Below, in pieces: positions 1-15,615 of a DNA stretch of 64,000 bases. The translations under genes were made by a program, and so were the position numbers. This DNA comes from Haloferula helveola. Lineage in GTDB: Bacteria > Verrucomicrobiota > Verrucomicrobiia > Verrucomicrobiales > Akkermansiaceae. The stretch lies in NCBI RefSeq assembly GCF_037076345.1, contig NZ_AP024702.1, forward strand, positions 3,906,001 through 3,970,000, given 5' to 3'. The notes under the pieces were generated by a model. It was not told the origin of the DNA. It made no database searches and saw nothing but the letters and a program-made list of their open reading frames with translations. Every line of letters begins with the position of its first letter. The stretch's first letter is position 1.

Positions 1-231
1 TGGGTTTCTCCGCCGCAGTCAGGGAAGCGGCGGGAAGAAAGAAGGGAATGAGGAAAAGCGCGAGTCGTCGCATGTGGGAAAACATCTCGCCAGATACCCT
101 CGCGTTCCCCGGATTCTCCCGCAAGGACGGGATTTCGGGGGGAGGCAGCCCACGAATTCCCCAGATTTATGCAGAAACGTGTTTACGTTTTCATTTCTGA
201 GGTCGTAGGTGATTGGAAACCTATAAAACCC
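1..231 (+). promoter_or_regulatory. 5' region of the beta-repeat protein gene
   Basis: No gene is evident here. A 7-bp perfect stem (CCGCCGC at 10-16 with GCGGCGG at 27-33) could be the terminator of a gene lying outside the window, but no T-run follows it. A spaced dyad, AAACGT at 175-180 with ACGTTT at 185-190, lies about 42 bases before the chosen start codon at 232 and could be an operator. No confident -35/-10 pair was found. Confidence 0.3.
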
Positions 232-3200
232 ATGAAAAACCCAATCTGCTGCATTGCTGTGGCCGGAGGGCTCGTGCCGTTTTCGCACGCTGCCGACATC
301 GTCAAGGCCGGGAATACGACCAGTATGGTCAACGGAGGATCCTGGGTCGGCGGTGTCGCTCCCACCGCGTCCGATACCGCGGTCTTCGACGACACTTTCA
401 CCGCGACCGGAAGCCAGTTTACCGGAGGCCAGCTTGAGTGGGGCGGCCTGCGGGTGGAAGGGACGACCGTCACGTCGCGCATCAACCTCAACAATGGCGG
501 CACCAACTGGGTCGGCGTCGGGGCGGGGGGGATCGACATGTCGGCCGCGCCGCGGGACTTGCTGGTGGCCAGCTTCCACGTCAGCGACGACCAGGTTTGG
601 AACATTCCCAGCGGTCGCACGCTGGAGATGGGACTCCGCAGTGACAACAGCCCGAACAACCGGCGATTCGACGGTCCCGGAAACGTGATCGTGACCGGAG
701 ATGGCTTGGTCCGGATCAACGGCGATGGCTCGGATGGCATTCTCTGGCAGGGGAATCTCACCGTGCAGAGCGGAGCGACCGTGCAGATGGAAGCGCCGGA
801 GGCTTACGGGCTGACCGGCAACGGCAGCAGCGTGACGGTCGAGGCGGGTGGCACGCTGATCAACACCGCGAACATCAACGTCCGGGGCGAAGCGGTTTTC
901 CTCGCGGGTGACGGTGACGGCGGTGGTGCCTTCCAGCACACCGGTCCCAACGCCCAGCAGCTTTTCTCGGATGTCACTCTGACCGCCGACGCGTCCGTGG
1001 GTGGCACCGGCCGCTTCGACATCGGCCTCAACGGAGTGGATCCGCCCTCGACCGTGATTCTCGATTTGGCCGGATTCACCCTGACCCGAACCGGAAGCTC
1101 GCAGACGCAGATCAAGGGCGGCACCGTTTCGGCGGGGAACCTCGACATCGTTTCGGGGGTCATCGGATTGGAAGGCGGTGTCACGCTGGCCGGTGGCGGC
1201 ATGGGGACGATCACCGTTCGGAATGGAGGCGAGCTCCGCGTCTATCGTGGACTTAACGCCGTGCTCAGCACGATTGAGCGGGACATCATCTTCGAAGGAG
1301 GCGCGCTGTTCCAGTGGACCGGCGTCAATTCGGCGGAAGCGGTGGACGAGACGATCGGCGCGCCCGTTACCCTGACCGGCGATGCCGAGATTGAGATCGA
1401 TGGTGGCGCGGGCTCGGTGCTCGAGTTTTCGAACGCGATCAGCGAGAGCGGCGGGTCGTTCGGGATCCTCAAAACATCGCCCAACACGCTGCTCCTCTCG
1501 AATGCCAACACCTTTACCGGACTGACCGATGTCTCCGCAGGCACGCTGCAGGTGGATGGTTCGTTGGCCGGGCCGGCGTCGGTCGCCGTGGGTGCGGTGC
1601 TTGGCGGCAGCGGCTCCATCGATGGCCTCGTCAGTGTTGCGGGAGATCTCTACCTCGATGGAACTGCGGGTGCCACGGGAGGGCTGGCGAATTCTGCGAG
1701 CGGAGCGGTCATCGACCCGGCGGGGCCCGGCGTGATCGGGGCGATCGATACCGCCTCCCTCGATCTGAACAATGCCGACCTCTATTTCGATCTCAACGGT
1801 CTTGCCTCGACCGACACGCTGACGATTGCAGCCGACGGCGCGTTCCTGGCCAGCGGGCTAACCTTCGTCTACGTCGACGAATTCGCCGAGTGGGAAGTCG
1901 GTGACTATCCGCTGATCCAGTACTCCGGGGCCACCACGCCGCCCGATCCGGATCCGACGGTCTACCTCGACCTCCAGACCGATCTCGGCCACGCGACCGG
2001 CTCGTTGGTCGATACCGGCTCGGCGATCGTGCTGCGCATCACCGCGGTTCCGCCGTCGGTGTGGGATGGTGCGGTGGACGCGAACTGGGATCTCGCGACC
2101 CTGAACTGGCAGTCGACCGATGGCCTGTTCGTGACGGGCGACGTGGCGTTCTTCGACGACACCGCAAGCGGCACCACCGATGTGAACCTCGATTTGCTCG
2201 TCGAGCCCGGTTCGGTGACGCTTAACCACTCGACCAACGACTACACGATCACCTCCGCCGCCGGCACCGGTGATATCTCCGGCCCGCTCACGACTCTCGT
2301 GAAGAACGGCACGGGCACGGCGACGATCGCGACCAAGAACTCCTTCGGTGGCGGAACGATGATCAATGACGGCACGCTCTTCCTGAGCCGGAGTGTCGAT
2401 CTCGGCGGCGGGCCGATCATTGTCGAGGACGCCGCGCTCGGAACCGGCCCGATCGAGATCAACGCGCCCGGGGTTTTCCAGGTCGCGGTGAATGCCTCAT
2501 TGCCGAACATCATTTCCGGCGACGGCGCCGTGCTGAAGAGCCACCCGACTTCCGGGACCTACACGACCTTCGCCGGGGCCAACACCTACACCGGACTCAC
2601 GACCATTGAGAACGGCTCGCTTGCGATCGGTGATCCCACCGCGCTCGGTGACGTTTCTGCGGGAACCATCGTCGAGGACGCCGCCCGCTTGGCCATTGGC
2701 AACCCGCTGCCCAACGGCAGCACCGTCAGCGAGCCGGTGACGCTGGTGGGTGGCCCGACGACGGCACTTCCGGATTTCCATGTTCTCAACAGCCGCACCG
2801 GAATCATCTGGGATGCCACGCTCAGCGTCGAAGGCGACTCCATCCTCGCGTTTGATGCCGGCACTTCGATCGACTTCGCGGCGGCAACCGCGCTCGATTA
2901 TTCGGGAGGCGGAAGTGGTGCGAACGTGATCTTCCAAGGGGACGGCCTCGCCGGGGTTTCGGGATCGATCGACCTCGGGACGGGAAGCATTTCTCACGAA
3001 GGCACCGGGACGCTGACTCTCAGTGCTGGCTCGCACAGCTTCGTCGATACGACCGTGGTCGAGGGGACGGTCGCATTGACCGGCGACGGCCAGCTCGGCA
3101 GCGGTATCAACAGCGCCGCATCCGGGGCATTCTTCGGTTTGGAGGGCACGCTGAACGCTCCCTTGACGGCGGTTTTGACCGGTGACGGAACGCTGATCAA

Positions 3201-5106
3201 GACCGGCGGCGGAGTTGCCGAGTTGGGAGTGGCACACAATCTTGCAGGGGGCACGCAATTGGACGACGGACTGATTCTGGTCGGCAGCGACGGCCTCCTT
3301 GGCACAGGCCAGATCTTCATCAATGGCGGCAGCGTCGCGCCCGCCGATGCAACGCCGCGCACCTTCGCGAACCCGGTGCTGATCGGTGACAATCCGGCCT
3401 TCGGTGATGTGAGCGGCACCTATCCAGCGGCGATGACCTTCACCGGAGACATCGATTTCGCCGCGGCCACCCGCACGGTCCGGATCTACAATCCGACCAC
3501 GTGGACCGGCACCTCCGGCACGGCTCCGGGTCAGGGAGGGATCCAGGTGAAGAACGGTCTCGCCACCCTGACGGTTCAAGGTGATGCGAACTGGGATGGG
3601 ATTCTCGAAGTCCGCGAAGGATCGATCGTCATCGATGGTGCCTCGTTGGTCAGTGGGGATGCGATCCGTGTGATGTGCATTCTGAATGGGGGAACCTCCG
3701 AGTTCTCGGTGATCAACGGCGGCTCGGCGGAGATCACCAATGCGAACGCGAACCTGCGACTTGGTTACGGCGTCAGTGATCCGACCAGCACGAACGATGC
3801 GACCATTGCCGGCGACCTGATCCTCACCGCCGGGGGTGGCGGCGGCAAAGTCCAACTCGGAACCAACTCGGCATCGACGACCCTGAATCTCCTGAGTGGC
3901 GGCAACATCTTCTGCGCCGCGGTGCAGGATTTGGATGCAGCCGCAGCGACGACCGTGAATCTCGATGGTGGAACGTTCACTGTGATCGTGGATGGTGCGA
4001 ACAGCGCGCTGAACGGGTTCATGGAAGGACTCGATGCGGTCAATGTCCTCGATGGCGGAGTCTTCATCGACACCAACGGCAACGACGCCCGACTTAACCA
4101 GGGGATGCTTGCCGGCGGTGGCGGAACGGGAGGTCTGACCAAGCAGGGTGCCGGGAATCTCACCTTGGGCGGTGCCAACAGCTACGGCGGATCGACCGTC
4201 GTGGAAGCCGGCACGCTCACGCTGCTTTCGCCAGGGACGTCGGGCACGGGCACGGTCGACGTGCAATCGGGAGCGATCCTGGCGGGCGACGGAACCGCAT
4301 CGGGTGACGCGACGATCACCGGCACCATTTCACCCGGAACTTCGGTGGGTGCGCTCACCGTGGCCGGCGAACTGACCTTCGGTCCGGACTCGTCGTATGA
4401 CTGGGAGGTTTCCGACTGGCTGGCATTCATCGCGGGCACCGATTACGACACGATCGGTGCGGACTCGCTCAATATCACCGCGACGATGGCCAACCCGGTC
4501 ACGATCAACGTGGCGGATCTTGCGCTCGCGAATTTCAGCGAGACGACGACCACCTTCACCCTGGTGACGACCGCCTCCGGCATCACCGGCTTCAGTGCCA
4601 ACGCATTCGTTGTCGACGGCGCTGCATTCGCGGTCTCCACCGGTGCCCTCGGCACGTGGGCGGTCCAGCAGAACGGCAACGACCTCGAGCTCGTCTACAC
4701 GGCCGGCGTGGCGAACGACTACGACACCTGGGCGGGCCTCTACGGACTGGATCCCAACACCGACGGTGCTCCGGGTGAGGATCCGGACATGGATGGCCTC
4801 ACGAACGAGGAGGAGTACGCGTTCGGACTCGATCCGACTGATCCGTCGGATGTGAATCCGATCAAGGCACCGCTCACCAAGGCAGGTGGAACGTTCACCT
4901 ACACGCGTCGCGATCCGAACGAGACCGGACTGACTTACACAACGGAGACGAGCACCGATCTCGCGGGCTGGCCGGATGATCTCGGGGCGGTTGAGAACGT
5001 CGACAGTGACACCGGGGCCCCGTATCACATCCAGACGGTCACCGTCACGGTCACGCCCGCTTTGCTGGCGAACCCGGCGCTGTTCGCCCGCGTGTCGGCC
5101 GAGTAG
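232..5106 (+). CDS. Secreted autotransporter-type beta-strand repeat protein
   Basis: Very large exported surface protein of 1624 aa. I place the start at 232, where a signal peptide begins (MKNPICCIAVAGG, cleavage near SHAAD); an in-frame start at 169 would add 21 residues before it. The body is Gly/Thr/Ser/Asn-rich beta-helix sequence with several autotransporter-associated beta-strand repeats of the form LxLxGANxYxGxTxVxxGTL, seen near residues 415-440, 690-720, 770-800, 985-1020 and 1305-1340. The C-terminus has a short Asp-rich type-3-like segment (DPDMDGLTNEEEYAFG, about residue 1520) and a beta-rich tail. I see neither an autotransporter barrel nor a PEP-CTERM tail, so how it is anchored is unclear. 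The role is unknown; adhesion or polysaccharide binding is an inference from its form and the sulfatase next door. Confidence 0.85.
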   Translation: MKNPICCIAVAGGLVPFSHAADIVKAGNTTSMVNGGSWVGGVAPTASDTAVFDDTFTATGSQFTGGQLEWGGLRVEGTTVTSRINLNNGGTNWVGVGAGGIDMSAAPRDLLVASFHVSDDQVWNIPSGRTLEMGLRSDNSPNNRRFDGPGNVIVTGDGLVRINGDGSDGILWQGNLTVQSGATVQMEAPEAYGLTGNGSSVTVEAGGTLINTANINVRGEAVFLAGDGDGGGAFQHTGPNAQQLFSDVTLTADASVGGTGRFDIGLNGVDPPSTVILDLAGFTLTRTGSSQTQIKGGTVSAGNLDIVSGVIGLEGGVTLAGGGMGTITVRNGGELRVYRGLNAVLSTIERDIIFEGGALFQWTGVNSAEAVDETIGAPVTLTGDAEIEIDGGAGSVLEFSNAISESGGSFGILKTSPNTLLLSNANTFTGLTDVSAGTLQVDGSLAGPASVAVGAVLGGSGSIDGLVSVAGDLYLDGTAGATGGLANSASGAVIDPAGPGVIGAIDTASLDLNNADLYFDLNGLASTDTLTIAADGAFLASGLTFVYVDEFAEWEVGDYPLIQYSGATTPPDPDPTVYLDLQTDLGHATGSLVDTGSAIVLRITAVPPSVWDGAVDANWDLATLNWQSTDGLFVTGDVAFFDDTASGTTDVNLDLLVEPGSVTLNHSTNDYTITSAAGTGDISGPLTTLVKNGTGTATIATKNSFGGGTMINDGTLFLSRSVDLGGGPIIVEDAALGTGPIEINAPGVFQVAVNASLPNIISGDGAVLKSHPTSGTYTTFAGANTYTGLTTIENGSLAIGDPTALGDVSAGTIVEDAARLAIGNPLPNGSTVSEPVTLVGGPTTALPDFHVLNSRTGIIWDATLSVEGDSILAFDAGTSIDFAAATALDYSGGGSGANVIFQGDGLAGVSGSIDLGTGSISHEGTGTLTLSAGSHSFVDTTVVEGTVALTGDGQLGSGINSAASGAFFGLEGTLNAPLTAVLTGDGTLIKTGGGVAELGVAHNLAGGTQLDDGLILVGSDGLLGTGQIFINGGSVAPADATPRTFANPVLIGDNPAFGDVSGTYPAAMTFTGDIDFAAATRTVRIYNPTTWTGTSGTAPGQGGIQVKNGLATLTVQGDANWDGILEVREGSIVIDGASLVSGDAIRVMCILNGGTSEFSVINGGSAEITNANANLRLGYGVSDPTSTNDATIAGDLILTAGGGGGKVQLGTNSASTTLNLLSGGNIFCAAVQDLDAAAATTVNLDGGTFTVIVDGANSALNGFMEGLDAVNVLDGGVFIDTNGNDARLNQGMLAGGGGTGGLTKQGAGNLTLGGANSYGGSTVVEAGTLTLLSPGTSGTGTVDVQSGAILAGDGTASGDATITGTISPGTSVGALTVAGELTFGPDSSYDWEVSDWLAFIAGTDYDTIGADSLNITATMANPVTINVADLALANFSETTTTFTLVTTASGITGFSANAFVVDGAAFAVSTGALGTWAVQQNGNDLELVYTAGVANDYDTWAGLYGLDPNTDGAPGEDPDMDGLTNEEEYAFGLDPTDPSDVNPIKAPLTKAGGTFTYTRRDPNETGLTYTTETSTDLAGWPDDLGAVENVDSDTGAPYHIQTVTVTVTPALLANPALFARVSAE

Positions 5107-5155
5107 GACCGGACGGATGCGGCAGGAGAGGGGGCGGTTTGGCGAGCCGCTCCCC

Positions 5156-5169
5156 AATTGCCGGCAATT
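5156..5169. repeat. Perfect 14-bp palindrome AATTGCCGGCAATT
   Basis: A perfect dyad lying 75 bases before the sulfatase start, directly upstream of the conserved element at 5174-5201. It could be an operator or part of a weak hairpin. A bulged GC stem around 5130-5155 lies just before it and may be the terminator of the preceding gene, but it lacks a T-run. Confidence 0.4.
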
Positions 5170-5173
5170 CGGG

Positions 5174-5201
5174 TGTCCCAATTCCGGCGGGACCGGCTCA
5201 T
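5174..5201 (+). promoter_or_regulatory. Candidate promoter/operator element, copy 1
   Basis: A 28-bp block that starts TGTCCCAAT and ends TCAT. It matches a block at 9497-9524 at 21 of 28 positions, with the same 24-base distance between the two conserved ends. It lies 70 bases upstream of the sulfatase start, against 77 for the other copy. The ECF sigma/kinase pair is encoded between the two targets, so an ECF-dependent promoter is a reasonable guess. Confidence 0.4.
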
Positions 5202-5243
5202 CTTGGAAGGATTCGCGGTCGTTCCGCGTCCTAGTCCATTCCC

Positions 5244-6746
5244 ATGAAGGCCTTCACCCTCCCGCTTTGCGCCGCCCTGATCAGCTCGGCCCTTCCGGCT
5301 TTCGCCGGACAGAAGCCGAACATCCTCGTGCTCTACGCCGATGACCTCGGCTTCGGCGATCTCACTTGCTACAACCCGGATTCGAAGATCCCGACGCCGA
5401 ATCTCGACCGGCTCGCGTCGGAAGGCCTTTCCTTCCGCGACGGCCACTCGTCCTCGGGGATCTGCACGCCCTCGCGCTACGCGTTGCTGACGGGCCGCCA
5501 CCACTGGCGCGACTTCCATGGGATCGTCGGCGCGCTGGGTGGCACGGTTTTCAAAGAGGGACAACTCACGCTGCCCGGTATGCTCAAGGCCAACGGCTAC
5601 CGGACGGCGGCGATCGGGAAATGGCACCTCGGTTGGGACTGGGACGCCATCCGCAAACCGGGAACGCCGAAGAAGTCGGTCAAACACTCGGACTTCGATT
5701 GGTCGAAGTCCGTGCCGGAGGGACCGATGTCGATCGGCTTCGATTCTTACTTCGGCGACACGGTGATCAACTTCCCGCCCTACGCGTGGATCGAGGACGA
5801 CAAGCTGGTGAAGGCACCCGACACCCAGATGGACACCAAGGTGTGGCCGACGATCAAGGAGGGCAACTGGGAGTGCCGGCCCGGGCCGATGGTCACGGGT
5901 TGGAATCCCTACGAGAACATTCCGACGACCACCGCCAAAGGGGTCGAGACGATCAAGAGTCTGGCCGCCGAGGAGGAGCCGTTCTTCCTCTACTTCGCCT
6001 TCCCGTCGCCTCACGCGCCGATCATCCCGAACGACAAGTTCGACGGCAAATCGAAGGCGGGTCCCTACGGCGACTTCGTTTTCGAGACCGATGACTCGGT
6101 CGGCCAGTTGCTCGCCGCACTCGAGGAGTCCGGCGAGGCGGACAACACGATCGTCTTCTTCAGTGCCGACAATGGTCCGGAGCGCTACTGCTACGCCCGC
6201 GACGAGAAGTTCGACCACTGGTCGTCCCATCCCTTGCGCGGCTGCAAAAGGGACATTCATGAAGGCGGCCATCACGTGCCTTTCATCATCCGCTATCCCG
6301 GGGTGACCAAGGCGGGAACGACCACCGACGCGCTGGCGTCGCAGACGGACGTCTTCGCGACGCTGGCCGAGTCCGCCGGATGCGAGCTTCCGGAGAAGTC
6401 CGGTGCCGAGGATTCGTTCTCGTTGATGCCGGTTCTGAAAGGTGCGCCGACCAGCGGACGGGAGTCGATCGTCCACAACACCAAGGCCGGGCAGTACGCG
6501 CTGAGGCACGGCGATTACCTCCTCATCGATTCGAAAACCGGGCACCTCTCCGGAGTTCCGAAGTCGTGGCTGGAGAAGCACGACACGCCGGCCGAGAAGG
6601 GGCCGGTGCACCTTTACAATCTGAAGGACGACATCGGACAGCGGAAGGACCTGGCCGAAGCGATGCCGGAGAAGGTGGAAGAGCTTAGGAAGAAGCTCGC
6701 CAGTCTCCGGGAGAGCAAGGCGACCGCACCACGTCTTGCAGAATGA
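5244..6746 (+). CDS. Secreted arylsulfatase (S1 family)
   Basis: Formylglycine-dependent sulfatase of 500 aa that should remove sulfate esters from a carbohydrate or other organic substrate in the periplasm or outside the cell. A signal peptide covers about residues 1-21 (cleavage near AFAGQ). The metal-binding start NILVLYADDLGFGD follows, and the activation motif CTPSR has its Cys at residue 74, the residue converted to formylglycine. Further family features are KWHLG near residue 130 and SADNGPE near 303. Length is normal for a single-domain S1 sulfatase. The sigma factor gene begins only 9 bases after the stop, so co-transcription is possible. The substrate cannot be read from sequence; sulfated polysaccharide is likely from the setting. 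No modifying enzyme (FGE/anSME) is encoded in the window. Confidence 0.93.
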   Translation: MKAFTLPLCAALISSALPAFAGQKPNILVLYADDLGFGDLTCYNPDSKIPTPNLDRLASEGLSFRDGHSSSGICTPSRYALLTGRHHWRDFHGIVGALGGTVFKEGQLTLPGMLKANGYRTAAIGKWHLGWDWDAIRKPGTPKKSVKHSDFDWSKSVPEGPMSIGFDSYFGDTVINFPPYAWIEDDKLVKAPDTQMDTKVWPTIKEGNWECRPGPMVTGWNPYENIPTTTAKGVETIKSLAAEEEPFFLYFAFPSPHAPIIPNDKFDGKSKAGPYGDFVFETDDSVGQLLAALEESGEADNTIVFFSADNGPERYCYARDEKFDHWSSHPLRGCKRDIHEGGHHVPFIIRYPGVTKAGTTTDALASQTDVFATLAESAGCELPEKSGAEDSFSLMPVLKGAPTSGRESIVHNTKAGQYALRHGDYLLIDSKTGHLSGVPKSWLEKHDTPAEKGPVHLYNLKDDIGQRKDLAEAMPEKVEELRKKLASLRESKATAPRLAE

Positions 6747-6755
6747 CCCATCGGC

Positions 6756-7427
6756 ATGGGCACGACCATTCAGCATACGGTCAGCCCTGAATTTCCTCGG
6801 CAGCCCGTGGCCGTCCGACTAGAACGGCCAACGGTGGAGCCGTACGAAACACGTCACAGTCTGATCCGTCGGGCCTGCGATCCGGGCGACCAGCGGGCAT
6901 GGGTCGAGTTCGTCGAGAACTACCGGCGGTTCATCTGCTACATCCTCCACGAGATCGGAGTCGGCCGGGACGAGGTCGATGACCTAGCGCAGCAGATCCT
7001 TGTCCGCCTCACCCGCGACCTGCCGACCTACGACCGTTCCCGGGCCCGGTTCCGCTCGTGGCTCGGAGCGGTAATCCGCAATGCCGCCTTCACCCACCTC
7101 CGGACCCTGAAACGCCGCAGCGCCCACCTGAGCCGCTACGGCGAGCAGTTGCTGGCGGAAGGGCCCGACGGCGCTTCGTCCGAACTGGAGGAGTTCATCG
7201 AGAGCGAATGGAAGACCTACGTTTCCAGTCTCGCCATGGAGCGCGTGCGCTCGGTCTTCCAAGGGCAGGCGATGGAGGTTTTCGAGATGGGGCTGGACGG
7301 AAGGTCGGCCGATGAGATCTCCGAGGCGACCGGTCTGAGTATCTCGTCTGTTTACACCCTCCGGAAGCGGGTGAAGAAGCGGCTCTATCTGGAGATCCGA
7401 GCATTGACCGCCGAACTCGAGCCATGA
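6756..7427 (+). CDS. ECF-type RNA polymerase sigma factor
   Basis: Sigma-70 family factor of 223 aa. Region 2 is seen from about residue 28 (ETRHSLIRRACDPGD, then VDDLAQQILVRL and the Arg/Trp-rich stretch RARFRSWLGAVIRNAA), and region 4 near 175-215 (GRSADEISEATGLSISSVY, a helix-turn-helix). The long linker and the opening ETRHSL resemble planctomycete/verrucomicrobial ECF factors encoded with Ser/Thr kinases. The ATG at 6756 is provisional because no clear ribosome site precedes it and a GTG near 6834 would also keep region 2. It overlaps the kinase gene by 4 bases (ATGA), which implies translational coupling, so the kinase is its likely regulator. Candidate targets are the genes preceded by the elements at 5174 and 9497 (inference). 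Confidence 0.88.
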   Translation: MGTTIQHTVSPEFPRQPVAVRLERPTVEPYETRHSLIRRACDPGDQRAWVEFVENYRRFICYILHEIGVGRDEVDDLAQQILVRLTRDLPTYDRSRARFRSWLGAVIRNAAFTHLRTLKRRSAHLSRYGEQLLAEGPDGASSELEEFIESEWKTYVSSLAMERVRSVFQGQAMEVFEMGLDGRSADEISEATGLSISSVYTLRKRVKKRLYLEIRALTAELEP

Positions 7428-9481
7428 GCACGCCGGAGTCCCGCTACACGCCGGACAGGCGACTCGAACGCGCTTACGAGGAGGCGAACCTTCTCGACGA
7501 CTCGGGGCTTGAAGCACTGTGTCCGTCGTACATCGAACTCGCGGAGTCGGACGTCCGGTATCGCGACGAGACGTCGATCGGAATGGGCTCGCTGAAGGAG
7601 GTCTCGAAGTGCTGGGACTGCCGGGCACGCCGGTGGGTGGCGATGGCGCGGCTCCGCGAGGACAGGGGAGCGGAGTTCTACGATTTGTTCGTCAACGAGG
7701 CGTGGGTCAGTTCATCGCTGAACCACCCGAACATTATCAACATCTACGACGTCGGCGTGGATGGTGTGGGGCGTCCCTATTTCACAATGGACCTGAAGGG
7801 TGAGACCACCCTCGGGGACGTGATCCGCGAGCGCGGGATGAGTGGGCGGCGGGAGCTGCTCGGGATCTTCCTGAGGATCTGCGATGCGGTCTCGTATGCC
7901 CACGATCACGGGTTTCTCCATCTCGACCTGAAGCCCGGCAACATCCAGGCCGACCGTTTCGGCGAGGTGCTGGTCTGCGATTGGGGCCTTGCCAAGAAGA
8001 TTGCCGAGCCCGAGTCGGCTGATGACGGTCTTCCCTTTCCCGGCCAGAAGGAATCGGTGGGAAACATCACGTTGCACGGTGAGATCAAGGGGACGCTCGG
8101 CTACATGGCTCCCGAGCAGATCGTGCCGGCGGGGAGGAAGGACGTCCGCACGGATGTCTTCGCGCTTGGCTGCGTGCTCCACGAGATCCTGACGGGCGTG
8201 CCGCCATTCACGGGCACTTCCCAGGAGGAGCTTTTGGCGAAGACCGCCCGGGGCACCTTCCCTCCACCGCATTTGCGCCATCCGCAGCGGATGGTGCCGG
8301 AAAGTCTCAGCGCGGTGGTGCTCAAGGCCTGCACCGCGGACCCGGAGCAGCGCTATGATTCTGTCGCGGAACTCGCCTCGGAGGTGTCGAAGTATTTGGG
8401 CGGCCATGCCACCGTGGCCGAGGAGCCGGGCTTCTTCCGCGCATCCGCCCTGTTCCTGCGAAGGCACAAGCTGCCGGCATCCATCTTCTTCGGAGCGATC
8501 GCTGTGGTGATTGTGGTGTCCGGGTTGTTTCTCCAGCGGATCAGCGTCGAACGTCTGGTCACCGAGAGCGAGCGGGGCAGGGCGAGGGAACTTGAAGACG
8601 AGGCCGGTCGGCTCGCGGCGCGGGTCGACGAGTCCGCCGCGCGAATCGAGAGTCATCTGGCCGAGACCGCGCAGTCGCGTGAGGAGCTCGCCGCCAAGTT
8701 GGCGAAGTCGGCGAACAGCCTGAAGAACCTCGGCGTCTTTTCAGCTCCGGCGAAGTCCATTCCCGAAGCCCGCGGCCTCGCCAAGGTGGCGCTCTCGCTG
8801 GATCCAACGAATCAGGAAGCCAGCTTTGAGACCTTCGTGCTGTCCTGCATCCAATTGGACTTTAGATCGGCCCTGGAGGCCGGGGTTCCCAAGAAGCATG
8901 AGTTCGCAGGCGATCTCAAGCTTGCCCGGAAGTTCCGGCATTTCGACTTCAGCGGGAGCCGCCGTCCCAGTCCCGAGCAGCTCGCGGGCTTTTTTCGTAA
9001 GGCGCGAACGGTGCATCCGGGTCGCGATCCCCTGATGGAGCGGATCCTCAGCTACGACCATGCCGTTCGCAAATCGAGCGCAGGCATCGAGCCGGTCATG
9101 GGGCTGGTCGAGTACATGAACGGCGGCGGCGAGCGCGTCATCGGTCGCTACGACCCTGATCACCGCGCATTGTTCCTGTGGTCGGACCGGCCGCTGGTTC
9201 TCGCATTGCAGGAAGGTGCCGGGTCCGGGGACTGCGTGCTGAAGTATGCACCGGTGCTCGAACTCACCTTGGATCTCCGTTACCGCTTCAATCTGTCGTC
9301 GCTGAACGCGCTTCCGGTCCGCCGGCTTGATCTGCGGAAATGCGAGAATCTGGTTTTCCCGAACCGGATCGAGCTGCGTGACCTTGAGGAGGTCCGAATC
9401 CTGCCCGGGCAGATCAATCCCGCGCTTCTGCGCAGCCGCATCGACTGCAGACGCCGCTTCGAGATCGTGGTCGAGGAGTAG
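7424..9481 (+). CDS. Membrane Ser/Thr protein kinase with WNK-like lysine position
   Basis: Hanks-type kinase of 685 aa. An N-terminal kinase domain (about residues 45-330) is followed by one membrane helix (352-372), a coiled coil (about 376-435) and an unrecognised C-terminal domain with a leucine-patterned tail. Motifs: a glycine loop GMGSLKEV with Lys58 where the third Gly usually sits; VAMA at 72-75, so the usual catalytic Lys is Ala; Glu92 in helix C; HLDLKPGN with Asp168 and Asn173; DWG at 186-188 instead of DFG; APE at 230-232. This is the arrangement known from eukaryotic WNK kinases, so the enzyme is probably active rather than a pseudokinase. It overlaps the sigma factor stop by 4 bases and probably transmits a signal to it; the C-terminal part would face the periplasm. 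Confidence 0.9.
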   Translation: MSTPESRYTPDRRLERAYEEANLLDDSGLEALCPSYIELAESDVRYRDETSIGMGSLKEVSKCWDCRARRWVAMARLREDRGAEFYDLFVNEAWVSSSLNHPNIINIYDVGVDGVGRPYFTMDLKGETTLGDVIRERGMSGRRELLGIFLRICDAVSYAHDHGFLHLDLKPGNIQADRFGEVLVCDWGLAKKIAEPESADDGLPFPGQKESVGNITLHGEIKGTLGYMAPEQIVPAGRKDVRTDVFALGCVLHEILTGVPPFTGTSQEELLAKTARGTFPPPHLRHPQRMVPESLSAVVLKACTADPEQRYDSVAELASEVSKYLGGHATVAEEPGFFRASALFLRRHKLPASIFFGAIAVVIVVSGLFLQRISVERLVTESERGRARELEDEAGRLAARVDESAARIESHLAETAQSREELAAKLAKSANSLKNLGVFSAPAKSIPEARGLAKVALSLDPTNQEASFETFVLSCIQLDFRSALEAGVPKKHEFAGDLKLARKFRHFDFSGSRRPSPEQLAGFFRKARTVHPGRDPLMERILSYDHAVRKSSAGIEPVMGLVEYMNGGGERVIGRYDPDHRALFLWSDRPLVLALQEGAGSGDCVLKYAPVLELTLDLRYRFNLSSLNALPVRRLDLRKCENLVFPNRIELRDLEEVRILPGQINPALLRSRIDCRRRFEIVVEE

Positions 9482-9496
9482 TTTTTTCCATCGAGC

Positions 9497-9524
9497 TGTC
9501 CCAATGTCGGTGCGGGCGGTTCAT
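9497..9524 (+). promoter_or_regulatory. Candidate promoter/operator element, copy 2
   Basis: Second copy of the TGTCCCAAT...TCAT block found at 5174-5201 (21 of 28 positions identical, equal spacing). It begins 77 bases upstream of the ATG at 9574, in the short gap after the kinase gene. Confidence 0.4.
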
Positions 9525-9573
9525 GGAGGGGAAGAGAGGGGCTTCGCGGCTCCGAAACCCGAAAAAAGCCAAC

Positions 9574-12345
9574 ATGCTCCCGAACCCGTCCCCTTCGCGA
9601 CCCCGCGGTCGCTCCGCCAGCCCTTGTTTGCTGGCACTCCTGTCCATCGCGGCCCTTGGTCTGCCGGCCTCCGGCCAGATCGTCCTGAACTCGCTGACCG
9701 ACTCCCAGATGGTCGGGCAGAACGACTCTGATCCACTCCTCCTCCCGGCGGCACCCGGTGACGGGTGGTTCACCGGCGCCTACGCCGGGACCGTGCGCCA
9801 GAGAGCGAGCGGAAACCAGGAGCAGTTGAGAACGCAGTGGTATTTCCGCTTCGATATCGCCGCCCTCAGCGGGATCCAGCCTCACCTGATCCAGTCGGCA
9901 ACGCTCGATATTCCCCAGATCGGACGGCTGAACACGCTGACGACCAACAATGTGCTTCGGATCTTCGATCCGAACGCGGATTGGGATGACGACGGGGGGA
10001 ACTACCCGACGTGGAATCTCGGCCGGGAGGCTCCCACTGGGAGTCCGGGGGGAACCTTGCTGGCGGACTTCGGGATGAATTCGTACCAGATCTATGGAAC
10101 GACGGCTGATCAGTCCGACACCAATGTCGAGGGGGTCTTCACCGTCGATAGCGCCGCGCTGCTGGATACGGTGAAAAGCTGGGCGGCGGATCCGGGAGAT
10201 AATGAGGGCTTATTCGCCACCTTTGTGCAGGCGGCCTTGGGCGGTCTCGCTTTCGGCACCCCAACACTCACGCTTGAGGTGCTGCCCGACGGTGACAGCG
10301 ACGGGATGCCTGACGACTACGAGGACGCCACGCCGGGACTCGACAAAACCAACTCGGCGGACGGAGCCCAGGGCGCCAACGACGGCTTGTTCGACGATGA
10401 CGGACTGACCAACCTCGAAGAATACCTCGCAGGCACCGATCCCAACGTGGCCGACAGCGACAGCGACGGCATCGATGACGGGCCCGAAACCACCGGTGCG
10501 TCCAATCCCTTCGGCTCGGAGGCCACCGATCCGCTCGACGACGACTCGGACGACGACGGGTTGCTGGATGGCGAAGAATTGACAGGGCAGTTCAACCCGT
10601 GGAGCGGTGGCGTCAGCACGACGGCGCCCGGAGAGGCGACCGACCCCAACTCTGCCGACACCGACGGGGACAATCTCACCGACCTTGAGGAACTCGACGC
10701 GGGTAACGGGTCGGTGACCGATCCCAATTCCGACGATAGCGACGGCGACACGCTCTTCGATGACGAGGAGGTGTTGAACGGACTCGATCCGCTCGACGGC
10801 TCCGGAGACAACGGCCCCACAGGTGACCCGGATCTCGATACTCTCAGCAATCTCGACGAGATCGTGACCTATGGAACCAGTCCGATCAGCGATGACACCG
10901 ATGCGGACAACCTGAAGGACCAAGATGAGCTGTCGGGTGCGCTCAACCCCTATCTCGTCGGTCACATTCCGGGCGACCCTCCCGCCGGCAATCCACCTGA
11001 CGGCGAGCCGACCGATCCACTGGACCCCGACAGCGACGACGACGGCCTTCTCGATGGTGACGAGGTTTCGGGCTCCAACGGGTCCATCACCGATCCCAAC
11101 GATCCGGACACCGACCAAGACACCTTGCTCGATGGTTTCGAGGTGGAAGGCAATCTCGATCCGAACGACCCGACCGGCGACAACGGTGCCACCGGCGACC
11201 CGGACTCCGATACCCTCGACAATGCGGGAGAGCAGACCGCCGGCTCGGATCCGCAGGAAGTCGATACCGACTCCGACACGCTGAGCGATGCCGACGAGGT
11301 GTTCGTCCATGGAACGGACCCGACCCGTCAGGATACCGACCGGGATCTCATCCGGGACGACGAGGAACTTGTGGCGGGCGCCGACGGATTCGTCACGCTG
11401 CCCACCGATGGCGACAGCGATGACGACGGGCACAAAGACTACGTTGAGATCGAGGCCGGGAGCAGTCCTGTTGACGGGCTCTCCACCCCGACTTTCCCGG
11501 CCATCGCGTGGACGGTCGAGGAGATGAGCTCCGCGGCTCTGCTTTCCACCGAAGGCACGCTCCTCTTCGCGGAGAACATCGACGGCGAGGATGTAACGGT
11601 GAACGGAATCCCGTTCGTCGGAGCCGTCGATACCCTGACCGAGAAGGCATCCCCGAATCTCCAGACCTTCATGAGCAGCCAATCGCGGTCCTTGAGCGCG
11701 GGTAACGTCAACGGGTTCTATGATCTTGAGGATCCGGCGCTCACGCCGCTGGTTACCAGCTTCTGGTTCCAATCCGTCACGGTAGCCGATGCGGATTTCG
11801 TTCCCCGTCTCGCGGTCACCGGACTCACTCCCGGGAAGACTTATCTGATCCAATTCGGGCGCGTGGACGATCGCAGCGGCGGCATCATCGACCGCTTCAT
11901 GACCGCGGATGGCGTCGGCGGAAATGTCGCAACCGATCCCATCGGTCCCACGAACTCGATCTACGGTGGTCCCGACCGGCCGGCGGTGCTCTTCACCGGA
12001 ACCTTCACCGCCGCCTCCACCGTGCAGGAGTTCTTCTGGGAGCAATTCCTCGCCAACGGTGACCTGACGGGCACCCACATTCCCTTCATCCAGGTGCGGG
12101 AGATCGAGGTCGCGGCGGATCTTCGTGTCGTCGCTACCGACCAGAATGGCTCATCCTTCACCGCGACCGTCGAAGGTCTCGATCCGGCCAAGCAGTACCG
12201 AATGGTGCGTTCGCTGAACCTGCAGGATGGATTTCCCGATGTGGTGGATGGTCCCCGGCTTCCGGCCGCTGCCACCGATGACTTCACGGATTCGAGTCTT
12301 CCGGTTTCCGATCGCGCGTTTTACCGGATTGAGGAAGTACCGTAA
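9574..12345 (+). CDS. Secreted protein with thrombospondin type-3 repeats
   Basis: Exported protein of 923 aa. I chose the start at 9574 (MLPNPSPSRPRGRS) because it leads directly into a signal peptide ending ALGLPASGQ; an upstream ATG at 9523 adds 17 residues with no signal character. Residues about 35-235 form a beta-rich DNRLRE/CBM96-like module (a guess based on phrases such as RTQWYFRFDIAALSG). About 240-620 is a long run of Asp-rich calcium-binding type-3 repeats (DPNSDDSDGDTLFDDEEVLNG and similar). The C-terminal third is beta-rich and unrecognised. The N-terminal module and repeats are closely matched by the next gene, which also carries a sulfatase. The likely role is cell-surface carbohydrate binding or a scaffold; no catalytic domain is visible. 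Confidence 0.85.
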   Translation: MLPNPSPSRPRGRSASPCLLALLSIAALGLPASGQIVLNSLTDSQMVGQNDSDPLLLPAAPGDGWFTGAYAGTVRQRASGNQEQLRTQWYFRFDIAALSGIQPHLIQSATLDIPQIGRLNTLTTNNVLRIFDPNADWDDDGGNYPTWNLGREAPTGSPGGTLLADFGMNSYQIYGTTADQSDTNVEGVFTVDSAALLDTVKSWAADPGDNEGLFATFVQAALGGLAFGTPTLTLEVLPDGDSDGMPDDYEDATPGLDKTNSADGAQGANDGLFDDDGLTNLEEYLAGTDPNVADSDSDGIDDGPETTGASNPFGSEATDPLDDDSDDDGLLDGEELTGQFNPWSGGVSTTAPGEATDPNSADTDGDNLTDLEELDAGNGSVTDPNSDDSDGDTLFDDEEVLNGLDPLDGSGDNGPTGDPDLDTLSNLDEIVTYGTSPISDDTDADNLKDQDELSGALNPYLVGHIPGDPPAGNPPDGEPTDPLDPDSDDDGLLDGDEVSGSNGSITDPNDPDTDQDTLLDGFEVEGNLDPNDPTGDNGATGDPDSDTLDNAGEQTAGSDPQEVDTDSDTLSDADEVFVHGTDPTRQDTDRDLIRDDEELVAGADGFVTLPTDGDSDDDGHKDYVEIEAGSSPVDGLSTPTFPAIAWTVEEMSSAALLSTEGTLLFAENIDGEDVTVNGIPFVGAVDTLTEKASPNLQTFMSSQSRSLSAGNVNGFYDLEDPALTPLVTSFWFQSVTVADADFVPRLAVTGLTPGKTYLIQFGRVDDRSGGIIDRFMTADGVGGNVATDPIGPTNSIYGGPDRPAVLFTGTFTAASTVQEFFWEQFLANGDLTGTHIPFIQVREIEVAADLRVVATDQNGSSFTATVEGLDPAKQYRMVRSLNLQDGFPDVVDGPRLPAAATDDFTDSSLPVSDRAFYRIEEVP

Positions 12346-12377
12346 GGTGGTTGGTTCACCGTTCCCAAAGCTTCCTC

Positions 12378-12410
12378 GGGCACCCATCGGGCAGGTGGGT
12401 GCCTTCCTTT
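12378..12410 (+). terminator. Terminator-like hairpin between the paralogues
   Basis: GGCACCCA at 12379-12386 pairs with TGGGTGCC at 12396-12403, and a pyrimidine run TTCCTTT follows. It would end the transcript of the preceding gene or act as an attenuator 11 bases before the next start at 12421. Confidence 0.5.
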
Positions 12411-12420
12411 CCCAAAATCC

Positions 12421-15400
12421 ATGAGTTCAATCCGTCTCAGCTTTCCGGCAGCCCTTCTCGCGCTTGCCGGGGTCGGCCAGGTCCATGCGGACGTCACGCT
12501 CTCGACGCTCACCGACAGCCAGTTGGTCGGCCAGAACGACACCGATCCTTTGACCGCTCCCGCAGTTCCGGGCGACGGATGGTTCACGGGCCCCTACAGC
12601 GGCACGGTCCGCCAGCGGGAAAGCGGCAGCAACGAGCAGTGGAGAACGCAATGGTATCTCCGCTTCGACATCTCGGCCTTGAGTGGAGTGGATCCGGGTC
12701 TGATCACCGGCGCCACCTTCAACATTCTGCAGATCGGCCGGCTCAACACGGTCACCACCGGCAACTCGCTCAAGGTGTTCGATGTGAATAGCGACTGGGA
12801 TGACGACGGAGGAAATTACCCGACATGGAATCTCGGGCGCGAGGCTCCGACCGGGGCGGGGGGAACGGAGTTGGAGAACTTCGGAACCAACTCCTACCAG
12901 CAGTTCGGGACCACAACGGATACGTCCAACCCGGACGTGGAAGGCACCTTCGTCGTCACGGGATCGGCTTTGCTCGATACGGTGAAAAGCTGGGCAAGCG
13001 ACCCTGCTGACAACGAGGGGCTGCTGGTCACGATGATCAACGTGGGATTCGCGGGACTGGCTTTCGGACCGCCGACCTTGGAGATCACGGTCCTCGTCGA
13101 CACCGACGGAGACGGGATGCCCGACCAATGGGAGGACGACAACGGTCTCGACAAGACAAGTGGGCTCGATGCCGACCTCGACAACGATGCGGTGGGTGGT
13201 CCGGACGGGCTTACCAACCTGGAAGAGTACCAAGTCGGCACCGATCCGCAGGACTCGGACAGCGACGACGACACGCTCTCGGATGGCGATGAGGTGAATG
13301 GCACCCTCAATCCGTGGAGCGGGGGAGTGCTCGGGACTCCTCCGGGCGATCCGACCAATCCTTTGGAGGCCGATAGTGACGGGGACGGGACCAACGACGC
13401 CGACGAAATCGCGGGCGGTACCGATCCGAATGCGTTTCAACTGTTTCCGTTCGTCGACACCGATGGTGATGGCTACCGAGACGATGCCGAGACGGCCTTC
13501 GGCTCGGATCCGAACGACGCCGGAAGCCGGCCGGATCACGCCAGCAGTCCGGCCCAGCCGAACGTGGTGATCATCTACGCCGACGACATGGGTTTCGGCG
13601 ACGTCTCACGCTACGCGAACCTCTACGGCACCACCCCGCCGGCGCCGACCCCGCGCATGGACTCGATCGGCGAGCAAGGCGTCACCTTTCTCGAAGGGCA
13701 CTCGAGCAACGGCATCTGCACGCCGAGCCGCTACGCGTTGCTGACCGGCCAGTACAACTGGCGGCTCTTCAACGGTATCACCGGCTACTACTGCTACGGA
13801 GGGGCGGGCAAAGAAGAGGTTCCATTGCTCTCGGATGTCACCCTTGCGGAATACATGAAGGGGCGGGGTTACGATACCGCCGCGTTCGGGAAGTGGCACC
13901 TTGGCGGCGAGTGGTACGCTCCGGGCGGGAGCCGCATTACCACTAACCCTACCGACCCGACGACCATCGATTGGTCCCGCCTGATCGTGAACCACGCCAC
14001 GGACCACGGCTTCGACCGCTTCCACGGGATGTGCGTGACGAACAACTTCGGCCCGTACCTGTATGTAGAGGACAACCGGAACACGATCTGGCACCCCGGT
14101 GCGAACAGTGGCGCCGGCGGGTATGTTCCGATCGTTCCGGACACCGCCGAGTTTGCTTCCGCGATTGCCGCGAATCAGGCGGCCACCCAAGCGCAGGTGA
14201 CGGATGGAAGTGCCGCCAATGGAGAAGTAAGGTGGTTCAGCACCGGCGACCTGAACACCGGCGTCCAGTCACCGGGGATCGACTCGAGAGCTTCGCTAGG
14301 TGACGATCATTATTCGGCCTTCGATACCGGGCCGCGGATGATCGAGGCGTTTGAGGAATACATTGCCGACCGGGCCGGTGCTTCCGATCCCGACCCGTTC
14401 TTCTGCTACGTCCCTCTCTACTATCCCCACAAACCGTGGGTCGTGATCCCTGAGTTCCAGGACGCGGATTATGCGAACGGATACATCTACGGTCCCTTCA
14501 TGAAGCAGGTGGACTCGATGGTCGGCCGGGTTCTCGATGCACTGGATGCCAACGGCTACGGAGACAATACCGTGATCATTCTGACGGCCGACAACGGTCC
14601 GGAGAACTCCGCGATGAGCCACTCGATCGCCTATGGTCGCGATCCGAACGGTCCGCTCCGCGGCAACAAACGCGACGTGTGGGAAGGGGGAACACGGGTG
14701 CCGTTCATGGTTCGTTGGCCGGGCCGTTCGGCGGCGGGTTTGATTGTCGAGGACCCCGTCTCACAGGTGGACATCTTCGCCAGCGTGGCGGCCCATTTCG
14801 GAGATGAACTTGCCGATGGAGTCGCCACCGATGGCGAAAGTTTCCTCAACCTTCTCCACGGTCAGGCCAAACCCGGGCCCTCCCGTCCCGGCGTGATCAT
14901 GGCGGCGGGCCGTGGCGATCTGGGAATCGTGACTCCGGGCGGCTGGAAATTCATCGACGGCTCCGGTGGCGGCGACAACAACTCGTGGGACTCTTCGGAC
15001 CAGACGATTCCCAGCGCCGCGGGTACCAACCAAGGCACTCCGAAACAACTCTTCCGGCTCGATGTGGACCTCGGGGAGGACAACAACCTGATCAGCGGGG
15101 TAACATCCGATTCCACGATCCGCAGCGAGCTGACCAGCCAGACCGGCACCGACCTGCTGGGGGTGATCGACGCGCTGCGTGTCTCAGGCACCGCGACGCT
15201 CTACGAACGCAGGCCGGACAACGATGCCGACGGCATGCCGAACGAGTTCGAAACGGCCAACGGGCTCAACCTCGATGACCCGTCCGATGCTTCGGAGGAT
15301 AAGGACGGCGACGGCCAGAGCAACCTCGACGAGTTTGTTTCCGGAACGGATCCGTGCGACGCGGCATCGGCCTTCCGTGTGCTCGATCTGAACAATACCG

Positions 15401-15615
15401 AGGGCCTGTTCTCGGTCATGTGGCAAGGGCATGCGGGTCGCGACTACACCGCATCGTGGTCGATCGATGGTGAGACCTGGACGGACGCCGGAACCCAAGC
15501 CGGCGTGGATGGACCGATGCAGGCCGATCTCGACAAGGCGGCCATCGATGCGCTGGACGGTGTTCCGGGCAACCTCACCCGGCTGTTGGTTCGTGTAGCC
15601 GCCGATCTTCCGTAG
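12421..15615 (+). CDS. Multidomain secreted sulfatase with N-terminal type-3 repeat region
   Basis: Exported protein of 1064 aa. A signal peptide (cleavage near QVHAD) is followed by a beta module (about 24-225) very similar to that of the preceding gene, Asp-rich type-3 repeats (about 228-375), and a complete S1 sulfatase (about 380-925) opening NVVIIYADDMGFGD, with CTPSR and the formylglycine Cys at residue 433, KWHLGG, and LTADNGPENS. A further type-3 segment follows (DNDADGMPNEFETANG, about 940-985) and then a short beta tail. The fusion would tether a sulfatase to a calcium-dependent binding or spacer region. The gene lies 75 bases after its paralogue with a hairpin between them. Substrate unknown. 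Confidence 0.92.
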   Translation: MSSIRLSFPAALLALAGVGQVHADVTLSTLTDSQLVGQNDTDPLTAPAVPGDGWFTGPYSGTVRQRESGSNEQWRTQWYLRFDISALSGVDPGLITGATFNILQIGRLNTVTTGNSLKVFDVNSDWDDDGGNYPTWNLGREAPTGAGGTELENFGTNSYQQFGTTTDTSNPDVEGTFVVTGSALLDTVKSWASDPADNEGLLVTMINVGFAGLAFGPPTLEITVLVDTDGDGMPDQWEDDNGLDKTSGLDADLDNDAVGGPDGLTNLEEYQVGTDPQDSDSDDDTLSDGDEVNGTLNPWSGGVLGTPPGDPTNPLEADSDGDGTNDADEIAGGTDPNAFQLFPFVDTDGDGYRDDAETAFGSDPNDAGSRPDHASSPAQPNVVIIYADDMGFGDVSRYANLYGTTPPAPTPRMDSIGEQGVTFLEGHSSNGICTPSRYALLTGQYNWRLFNGITGYYCYGGAGKEEVPLLSDVTLAEYMKGRGYDTAAFGKWHLGGEWYAPGGSRITTNPTDPTTIDWSRLIVNHATDHGFDRFHGMCVTNNFGPYLYVEDNRNTIWHPGANSGAGGYVPIVPDTAEFASAIAANQAATQAQVTDGSAANGEVRWFSTGDLNTGVQSPGIDSRASLGDDHYSAFDTGPRMIEAFEEYIADRAGASDPDPFFCYVPLYYPHKPWVVIPEFQDADYANGYIYGPFMKQVDSMVGRVLDALDANGYGDNTVIILTADNGPENSAMSHSIAYGRDPNGPLRGNKRDVWEGGTRVPFMVRWPGRSAAGLIVEDPVSQVDIFASVAAHFGDELADGVATDGESFLNLLHGQAKPGPSRPGVIMAAGRGDLGIVTPGGWKFIDGSGGGDNNSWDSSDQTIPSAAGTNQGTPKQLFRLDVDLGEDNNLISGVTSDSTIRSELTSQTGTDLLGVIDALRVSGTATLYERRPDNDADGMPNEFETANGLNLDDPSDASEDKDGDGQSNLDEFVSGTDPCDAASAFRVLDLNNTEGLFSVMWQGHAGRDYTASWSIDGETWTDAGTQAGVDGPMQADLDKAAIDALDGVPGNLTRLLVRVAADLP

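Follow-up and report, generated by a model that had tools for sequence, protein, structure and literature searches.

The lysine of kinase subdomain II, which lies on strand beta3 within the VAIK motif, has been called essential in work on Planctomycetota kinases (PMC11032199), and bacterial kinases that lack it are classed as pseudokinases by default, the families described being ActPs1-3, GLW, CP1, DYD and DLHK (PMC12599244). In 2007 WNK was called the sole functional eukaryotic protein kinase (ePK) family without the beta3 lysine (PMC1821047); a lysine on strand beta2 is required in WNK1 and in POMK (PMC10211241), a halide site has been described in WNK1, and several kinases can bind nucleotide without the beta3 lysine (PMC4718504). 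Related literature includes PMC3281104 and PMC7586955. Here we analyse a gene at positions 7424-9481 of a 64,000-nucleotide stretch of the Haloferula helveola genome (contig NZ_AP024702.1, positions 3,906,001 to 3,970,000; hereafter the window), the product of which is a predicted membrane Ser/Thr kinase with a relocated lysine.

The open reading frame begins with ATG on the + strand, the strand on which all features of the kinase and of its partner gene lie, and encodes 685 amino acids. A sequence-only reading of the window had claimed that Lys58 takes the place of the third glycine of the glycine loop and that Ala75 takes the place of the VAIK lysine, and both substitutions can be read directly in the translation. 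We consider it probable, from sequence comparison, a structural model and analogy with described enzymes, that the protein is an active PknB-like kinase that uses Lys58, the product of a single bacterial invention, and that it serves as a membrane-anchored sensor acting on the extracytoplasmic function (ECF) sigma factor encoded upstream. The narrower conclusion, that this is a Hanks-type kinase of bacteria in which the lysine has shifted as in WNK but independently, appears supported. No bacterial ePK-type kinase with a loop lysine is described in the titles, abstract openings or passages covered among the papers listed on lysine-less or WNK-like bacterial kinases, kinases of these phyla and sigma control; most subscription journals lie outside this coverage, so that a prior description is possible.

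Covariation of Lys58 with loss of the VAIK lysine

Scanning the genome contigs of GTDB yielded 50 related loci, and 57 relative genomes were searched as well. All 58 loci in this first set that match the kinase half of the window protein at 190 bits or more carry Lys58 together with Ala75, which rules out chance or sequencing error as the source of the pair. From these we built an alignment of 52 distinct proteins, window included, chosen for a score of at least 190 bits and for Lys58 (the second condition removed none; one member, L034, is truncated where its contig stops). Across this alignment, in which identity to the window protein falls as low as 27%, Lys58, Ala75, Glu92, His166, Asp168, Lys170, Asn173 and Asp186 are invariant, and PF00069 matches 52 of 52 rows.

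With the profile of this alignment we searched 387 genomes from the window's phylum (three best candidates per genome scored); it was also applied on 30 chosen genomes, four planctomycete-named bins and three further genomes, with 20 stretches extracted; on 294 genomes from the phylum of one planctomycete-named bin (four best candidates per genome); and on 140 genomes from the phylum of a Myxococcales bin (eight best candidates per genome). Note that only some loci were read in each search, so that the counts do not show absence from any genome or phylum. Removal of 17 identical rows from the 200 that cover both sites (loci up to L205) left 183 distinct domains. (Rows lacking position 58 or 168 were left out; these include L058, L126 and L065, the last a fragment with Lys58 and Ala75.) Because the queries were derived from the clade, the lysine-keeping rows are near relatives and kinases of the window's own genome rather than a random sample.

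Lys58 occurs with Ala75 in 88 of the 183 domains, 94 have the VAIK lysine without Lys58, a single domain has Gly58 with Ala75, and lysine at both sites is found in none. (The 88 clade rows include the window protein and near copies of it; 60 remain at 70% identity or less.) The sequence-only reading had predicted that the GxGxxK lysine would co-vary with loss of the VAIK lysine, and this is the pattern found; homologues that keep the normal lysine, instead of varying freely at position 58, mostly have glycine there (Gly in 84, Ala in 5, Ser in 4 and Val in 1) and never lysine. Fourteen loci read after the main count comprise one more Lys58/Ala75 locus (L206) and 13 that keep the VAIK lysine without Lys58; all 19 new loci read from the 294-genome search likewise keep the VAIK lysine, with glycine at 58, and none of the eight loci new in the search of the Myxococcales phylum is a clade member.

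Organism names are available for 34 clade rows: 21 are from Verrucomicrobiota, seven from Lentisphaerota, five from Kiritimatiellota and one from a planctomycete-named bin. A Planctomycetota-named genome (G426) has 11 matches above 500 bits, and the five of them that were read (L054, L059, L179, L181 and L184) have Lys58 and Ala75; the genome thus presents a lineage-specific expansion of the family. Three planctomycete-named bins (G427, G428 and G429) hold one high-scoring copy each, resembling copies from Akkermansiaceae or Kiritimatiellales, and these copies may be mis-binned. In a plasmid collection one record matched at E 1e-40 or better, a match judged by E value only.

To place the swap we inferred a tree, by a quick method, from 143 domains sharing no more than 70% identity, after taking out columns 58, 75 and 167. 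Fifty-nine of the 60 Lys58/Ala75 rows form one branch (Shimodaira-Hasegawa-like approximate likelihood ratio support of 99), the long-branched L119 falling outside it; when all 60 were constrained to stand together, the likelihood was 88 units better, with a P value of 0.995 in the approximately unbiased test. Many separate origins are thus not needed, as judged from these quick trees. The nearest sisters of the clade are kinases of Verrucomicrobiota and Planctomycetota, many of them with GGMG and VAMK. On the sequences, the swap reads as a change from GGMG/VAMK to GGMK/VAMA that would have taken place once, long ago, in a lineage now seen chiefly in Verrucomicrobiota, Lentisphaerota and Kiritimatiellota. 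The earlier suggestion of an old family trait holds within the bacterial clade.

When WNK1 was aligned to the family profile, its loop lysine (GRGSFK) fell on Lys58 and the cysteine at its VAIK position on Ala75. PknB is the best solved relative in a profile search of the PDB, at 212 bits, and WNK is absent among the best 60 of the 238 matches; WNK1 scores 71 bits against the family profile for its best domain and 79 bits as a whole. On these scores descent from WNK is rejected, and the independence that had been offered as one of two explanations is supported. Because the clade is PknB-like by sequence and is not a relative of WNK, the resemblance would be one of convergence.

Active site and fold

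The kinase domain covers residues 46-312 (7559-8359; PF00069, E 2e-36). Within it, the glycine loop GMGSLKEV (residues 53-60) lies at 7580-7603, with Lys58 encoded by AAG at 7595-7597, and Ala75, encoded by GCG at 7646-7648, closes the VAMA motif (residues 72-75). Downstream are Glu92 of helix C (7697-7699), the catalytic loop H166-L167-D168-L-K170-P-G-N173-I-Q175 (7919-7948), in which HRD reads HLD, and the DFG motif C185-D186-W187-G188 (7976-7987), which reads DWG. The retention of Glu92, Asp168, Asn173 and Asp186, which had been asserted for the window protein, is confirmed there and extends to the whole clade, since Glu92, His166, Asp168, Lys170, Asn173, Asp186 and Gly188 are each kept in 88 of 88 domains; Trp187 is present in 87. 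Position 167, the site of the HRD Arg, is Leu in 84 clade domains, Phe in three and Arg in one (L018:4965-7046, the sole Lys58/Ala75 row still with this arginine).

Eight kinase-domain positions, namely 58, 75, 118, 167, 175, 185, 226 and 274, separate the clade from its sisters when a residue is required in more than 75% of the clade and in less than 25% of the 43 nearest lysine-keeping rows (score at least 290). Six of them (58, 75, 167, 175, 185 and 226) lie in or beside the active site. Gln175 (7946-7948) is found in 73 of 88 clade domains and in none of the 43 nearest lysine-keeping rows, and Cys185 (7976-7978) in 70 of 88 and one of 43. By motif spacing we take position 175, two residues after the catalytic Asn, to correspond to PKA Leu173, which forms the adenine-pocket floor, and position 185 to be the residue that precedes the metal-binding Asp; an altered nucleotide preference of the clade is possible on these sequence differences. 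Lys58 is the only invariant Lys or Arg within residues 44-125 of the clade.

Two relatives outside the clade have departed from the consensus in other ways. L158 (genome G336, - strand), the domain with Gly58 and Ala75, combines VAMA with a normal GGMG loop, its catalytic Asn is replaced by His, and in the tree it falls within the lysine-keeping kinases; from its sequence it looks like a true pseudokinase within the sister clade and illustrates what plain decay resembles. The sister kinase L149 (genome G388) keeps VAMK, but its glycine loop is broken and its DFG Asp is replaced by His; it is a probable pseudokinase.

The AlphaFold2 model of the full-length window protein, built with 52 sequences, has a mean predicted local distance difference test score (pLDDT) of 87.5 and matches PknB (1mru) with a Z score of 32.5 and a root-mean-square deviation of 1.7 over 258 residues. 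(WNK is absent from the 50 structural matches listed for the model, which is uninformative either way.) Strands are modelled at residues 46-54, 58-65 and 70-77, so that Lys58 starts beta2, two residues before Val60, which we take to be the strand residue that faces adenine in kinases. Given this spacing, the side chain of Lys58 should face the nucleotide.

Beyond the kinase domain, a single predicted transmembrane segment (residues 352-370, 8477-8533; best hydropathy window 2.59, at residue 352) has basic residues facing the kinase side and lies within a long modelled helix at residues 349-405. The C-terminal half (residues 400-685, 8621-9478), which is presumably extracytoplasmic, was also modelled alone with 37 sequences (mean pLDDT 94.5) and consists of helices like those of tetratricopeptide repeats (TPR) followed by strands like those of leucine-rich repeats (LRR). 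Structural matches of this half to TPR and LRR proteins are modest (best Z 8.9); of its 37 rows, Pfam finds TPR_19 in four and LRR_4 in three, and in the window's own row neither. The PASTA model is absent among the Pfam matches of the 52 aligned proteins.

Gene neighbours and the partner sigma factor

Membrane Ser/Thr kinases with neighbouring ECF sigma genes have been described. ECF43 factors have other residues instead of the acidic motif of sigma region 2.2, including a Thr that becomes phosphorylated (PMC8999054, PMC13147305), and linker sites matter as well (PMC13147305). Other ECF groups linked to Ser/Thr kinases have retained a DAED-like motif and may use a different mechanism, and ECF59, ECF61, ECF62 and ECF217 are phosphorylation-regulated groups with planctomycete examples (PMC8999054).

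In the window the kinase gene follows a gene for an ECF-type sigma-70 factor of 223 amino acids (6756-7427; Sigma70_r2, E 9e-13; Sigma70_r4_2, E 7e-6; NCBIfam sigma70-ECF above its cut-off), the stop codon of which overlaps the kinase start by four bases (ATGA). The pair recurs in relatives, Haloferula rosea (L019) among them. For each of the 88 clade members we sought the frame directly upstream on the same strand and found a Sigma70_r2 gene in 63; one more member (L177) is preceded by a truncated 62-residue C-terminal piece. The coupling to an ECF sigma gene noticed in the window is thus widespread. In 46 of the 64 pairs, window included, the kinase frame overlaps the upstream frame, and in 30 it does so by exactly four bases, when each start is placed at the first ATG.

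Nineteen members have other genes upstream, comprising nine with a ClpB_D2-small match, three aminotransferases, two HAD hydrolases and singles of others; for five (L030, L111, L118, L122 and L128) no directly upstream same-strand frame was found within the limits of the survey. We read the ClpB_D2-small match as the C-terminus of ClpX. The nine cases (L127 and L129-L136) are short clade members, of 366-418 amino acids, that consist of kinase and membrane anchor and stand behind a gene ending in a ClpX-type C-terminus. Since the protein of this ClpX-linked branch is little more than kinase and anchor, its target would differ.

The partner sigma factors keep the acidic motif of region 2.2, with Asp or Glu at position 73 in 61 of 63 and at position 75 in 53 of 63, and with Asp76 in all 63. 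On the kept motif a mechanism of the ECF43 type is rejected for the partner, and ECF59, ECF61, ECF62 and ECF217 may be closer to these sigma factors than ECF43 is. Near the N-terminus, Thr32 is present in 61 of 61 and Ser or Thr at position 35 in 60 of 61; judging from this conservation, both are possible phosphorylation targets.

Elsewhere in the window, two neighbouring large proteins (9523-12345 and 12421-15615) are alike in their N-terminal part (TDSQ.VGQND...GDGWFTG), which in the second is followed by a TSP3 repeat and a sulfatase domain, and a 1645-residue protein with three PATR (autotransporter passenger) repeats is encoded at 169-5106, upstream of a sulfatase gene. A sulfatase match was found in the partly cut flanks of 11 of 47 named loci, a count with no background rate for comparison. 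Rfam gave no match at 5000-13000 of the window.

Proposed mechanism and comparison with known systems

We propose that the glycine-loop lysine on beta2, Lys58, would take over the job of the missing beta3 lysine, contacting the phosphates of ATP and pairing with Glu92 of helix C, as is held for the loop lysine of WNK1. The swap would have been invented once in the bacterial clade, independently of WNK and with the nucleotide pocket reshaped. The one membrane segment would anchor the protein with its kinase inside and its TPR/LRR-like sensor half outside; a signal at the outer half would switch the inner kinase, which would in turn act, probably through phosphorylation, on the ECF sigma factor whose gene precedes its own.

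Several points weigh against this proposal. With a single origin, the covariation amounts to no more than one event, whatever the number of rows that retain the pair, and the AlphaFold2 model is that of a protein without ligand. Because 87 of 88 clade domains lack the HRD Arg, control of the activation loop must differ from the usual. Moreover, 24 of the 88 members have a different gene, or none found, directly upstream, and, as the sigma factors keep their acidic motif, the proven mode of ECF43 activation is not applicable as such.

Some of these points could be taken to indicate a conserved pseudokinase, in which Lys58 would keep nucleotide binding without phosphotransfer and the protein would hold the sigma factor at the membrane or release it, like an anti-sigma factor. 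Loss of the beta3 lysine makes a pseudokinase by the usual sequence rule (PMC12599244), and the missing HRD Arg would fit. Overlap of the two genes in 46 of 64 pairs leaves no anti-sigma gene between them (anti-sigma genes elsewhere were not searched for), and a sigma factor with its acidic motif kept may need release rather than charge. We nevertheless think this explanation unlikely: Asp168, Lys170, Asn173 and Asp186 are retained in every clade domain, the clade-specific changes cluster around the nucleotide rather than being scattered like those of decay, and L158, the sole domain to have lost the lysine without having Lys58, has also lost its catalytic Asn. Least probable of the alternatives, in our judgement, is that Lys58 is a lineage accident, inherited once, with another residue or none replacing the beta3 lysine. 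The cases do fit a single origin, so that the pairing may be one event, and 84 of 88 clade domains have Arg70, which lies close to where beta3 begins; on the other hand, Arg70 is equally common in lysine-keeping rows (90 of 94) and so provides no replacement peculiar to the clade, and Lys58 is invariant in 52 proteins at identities down to 27% and occurs in none of the 94 lysine-keeping rows.

A different doubt concerns the target. The kinase might be active through Lys58 with a main target other than the neighbouring sigma factor, the pairing reflecting co-expression only, which we regard as doubtful, though less so than the pseudokinase. A whole branch lacks the sigma gene, the 19 other upstream genes (nine ClpB_D2-small and three aminotransferase genes among them) would be consistent with other targets, and so would the kept acidic motif of the sigma factors. 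Against this, the sigma gene stands directly upstream in 63 of 88 members, frames overlap in most pairs and often by exactly four bases (30 of 64), and Thr32 and Ser/Thr35 near the sigma N-terminus offer possible targets. A further idea, decidedly speculative, is that the clade also shares a consequence of the WNK shift: once Ala75 has emptied the beta3 site, an anion site would form at the back of the nucleotide pocket, through which chloride or another anion would set the kinase, with Gln175 and Cys185 altering its choice of nucleotide. If true, this would be a convergent ion-sensing kinase wired directly to a sigma factor in many bacteria.

If the clade does consist of active kinases that use Lys58, a deep bacterial group in which the replacement lysine is invariant would demonstrate that kinases of the PknB lineage can acquire such a shift and retain it, and that it can be read from sequence. 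Because, at the cut-offs given above, the clade differs from its nearest sisters at only eight positions of the kinase domain, the two constitute a natural experiment in which the swap could be run both ways. The locus is, in addition, a further pairing of kinase and sigma factor, one in which the sigma factor, unlike ECF43, keeps the acidic motif.

How the clade compares with described systems can be set out residue by residue. A bacterial pseudokinase has been defined by the absence of at least one of the beta3 Lys, the HRD Asp and the DFG Asp, and the clade qualifies through the beta3 Lys; the changes in the families ActPs2, GLW, DYD and DLHK, compared by their descriptions only, are not the combination of Lys58/Ala75 and unbroken HxD and DxG motifs seen here (PMC12599244). 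The Hanks-type hallmarks, that is, the HRD Asp, the Lys and Asn of the catalytic loop, the DFG Asp and the helix-C Glu, are each present in 88 of 88 clade domains. In the CAK-chloro group of kinase-like enzymes, a shift of the positive charge from site 72 to site 55 has been proposed (PMC1821047), which resembles the clade; CAK-chloro has Arg at 55, Met at 72, Phe at the helix-C Glu site and Gln at the DFG Gly, where the clade has Lys, Ala, Glu and Gly. POMK (SGK196), the vertebrate O-mannose kinase, shares with the clade a lysine that has migrated to beta2 and is needed for activity (PMC10211241). POMK has, however, also lost the HRD, DFG and helix-C Glu motifs, whereas the clade keeps Glu92, Asp168 and Asp186 throughout.

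The ECF43 pairs with PknT and PknS resemble the clade in that an ECF sigma gene adjoins the gene for a membrane Ser/Thr kinase (PMC8103513, PMC8999054, PMC13147305); ECF43 lacks the acidic motif of region 2.2 (DAED/DxxD made uncharged), which the sigma partners of the clade keep. With kinases of the PknB type the clade has in common the fold, the closest sequence and the arrangement of a kinase with one membrane segment, but it is without the VAIK lysine (0 of 88), the HRD Arg is gone in 87 of 88, and PASTA does not figure among the Pfam matches of the 52 aligned proteins. With WNK, the group of the human blood-pressure kinases, it shares a lysine at the site of the third glycine, loss of the VAIK lysine, and retention of the helix-C Glu, the catalytic Asp and Asn and the metal-binding Asp. 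Unlike WNK, the clade has Ala rather than Cys at the VAIK site in 88 of 88 domains; unlike WNK1, which has HRD and DLG, it has Leu167 in 84 of 88 and Trp187 (DWG) in 87 of 88; and, again unlike WNK, the clade kinase is PknB-like in sequence and fold, with a membrane anchor and a sigma factor as its neighbour.

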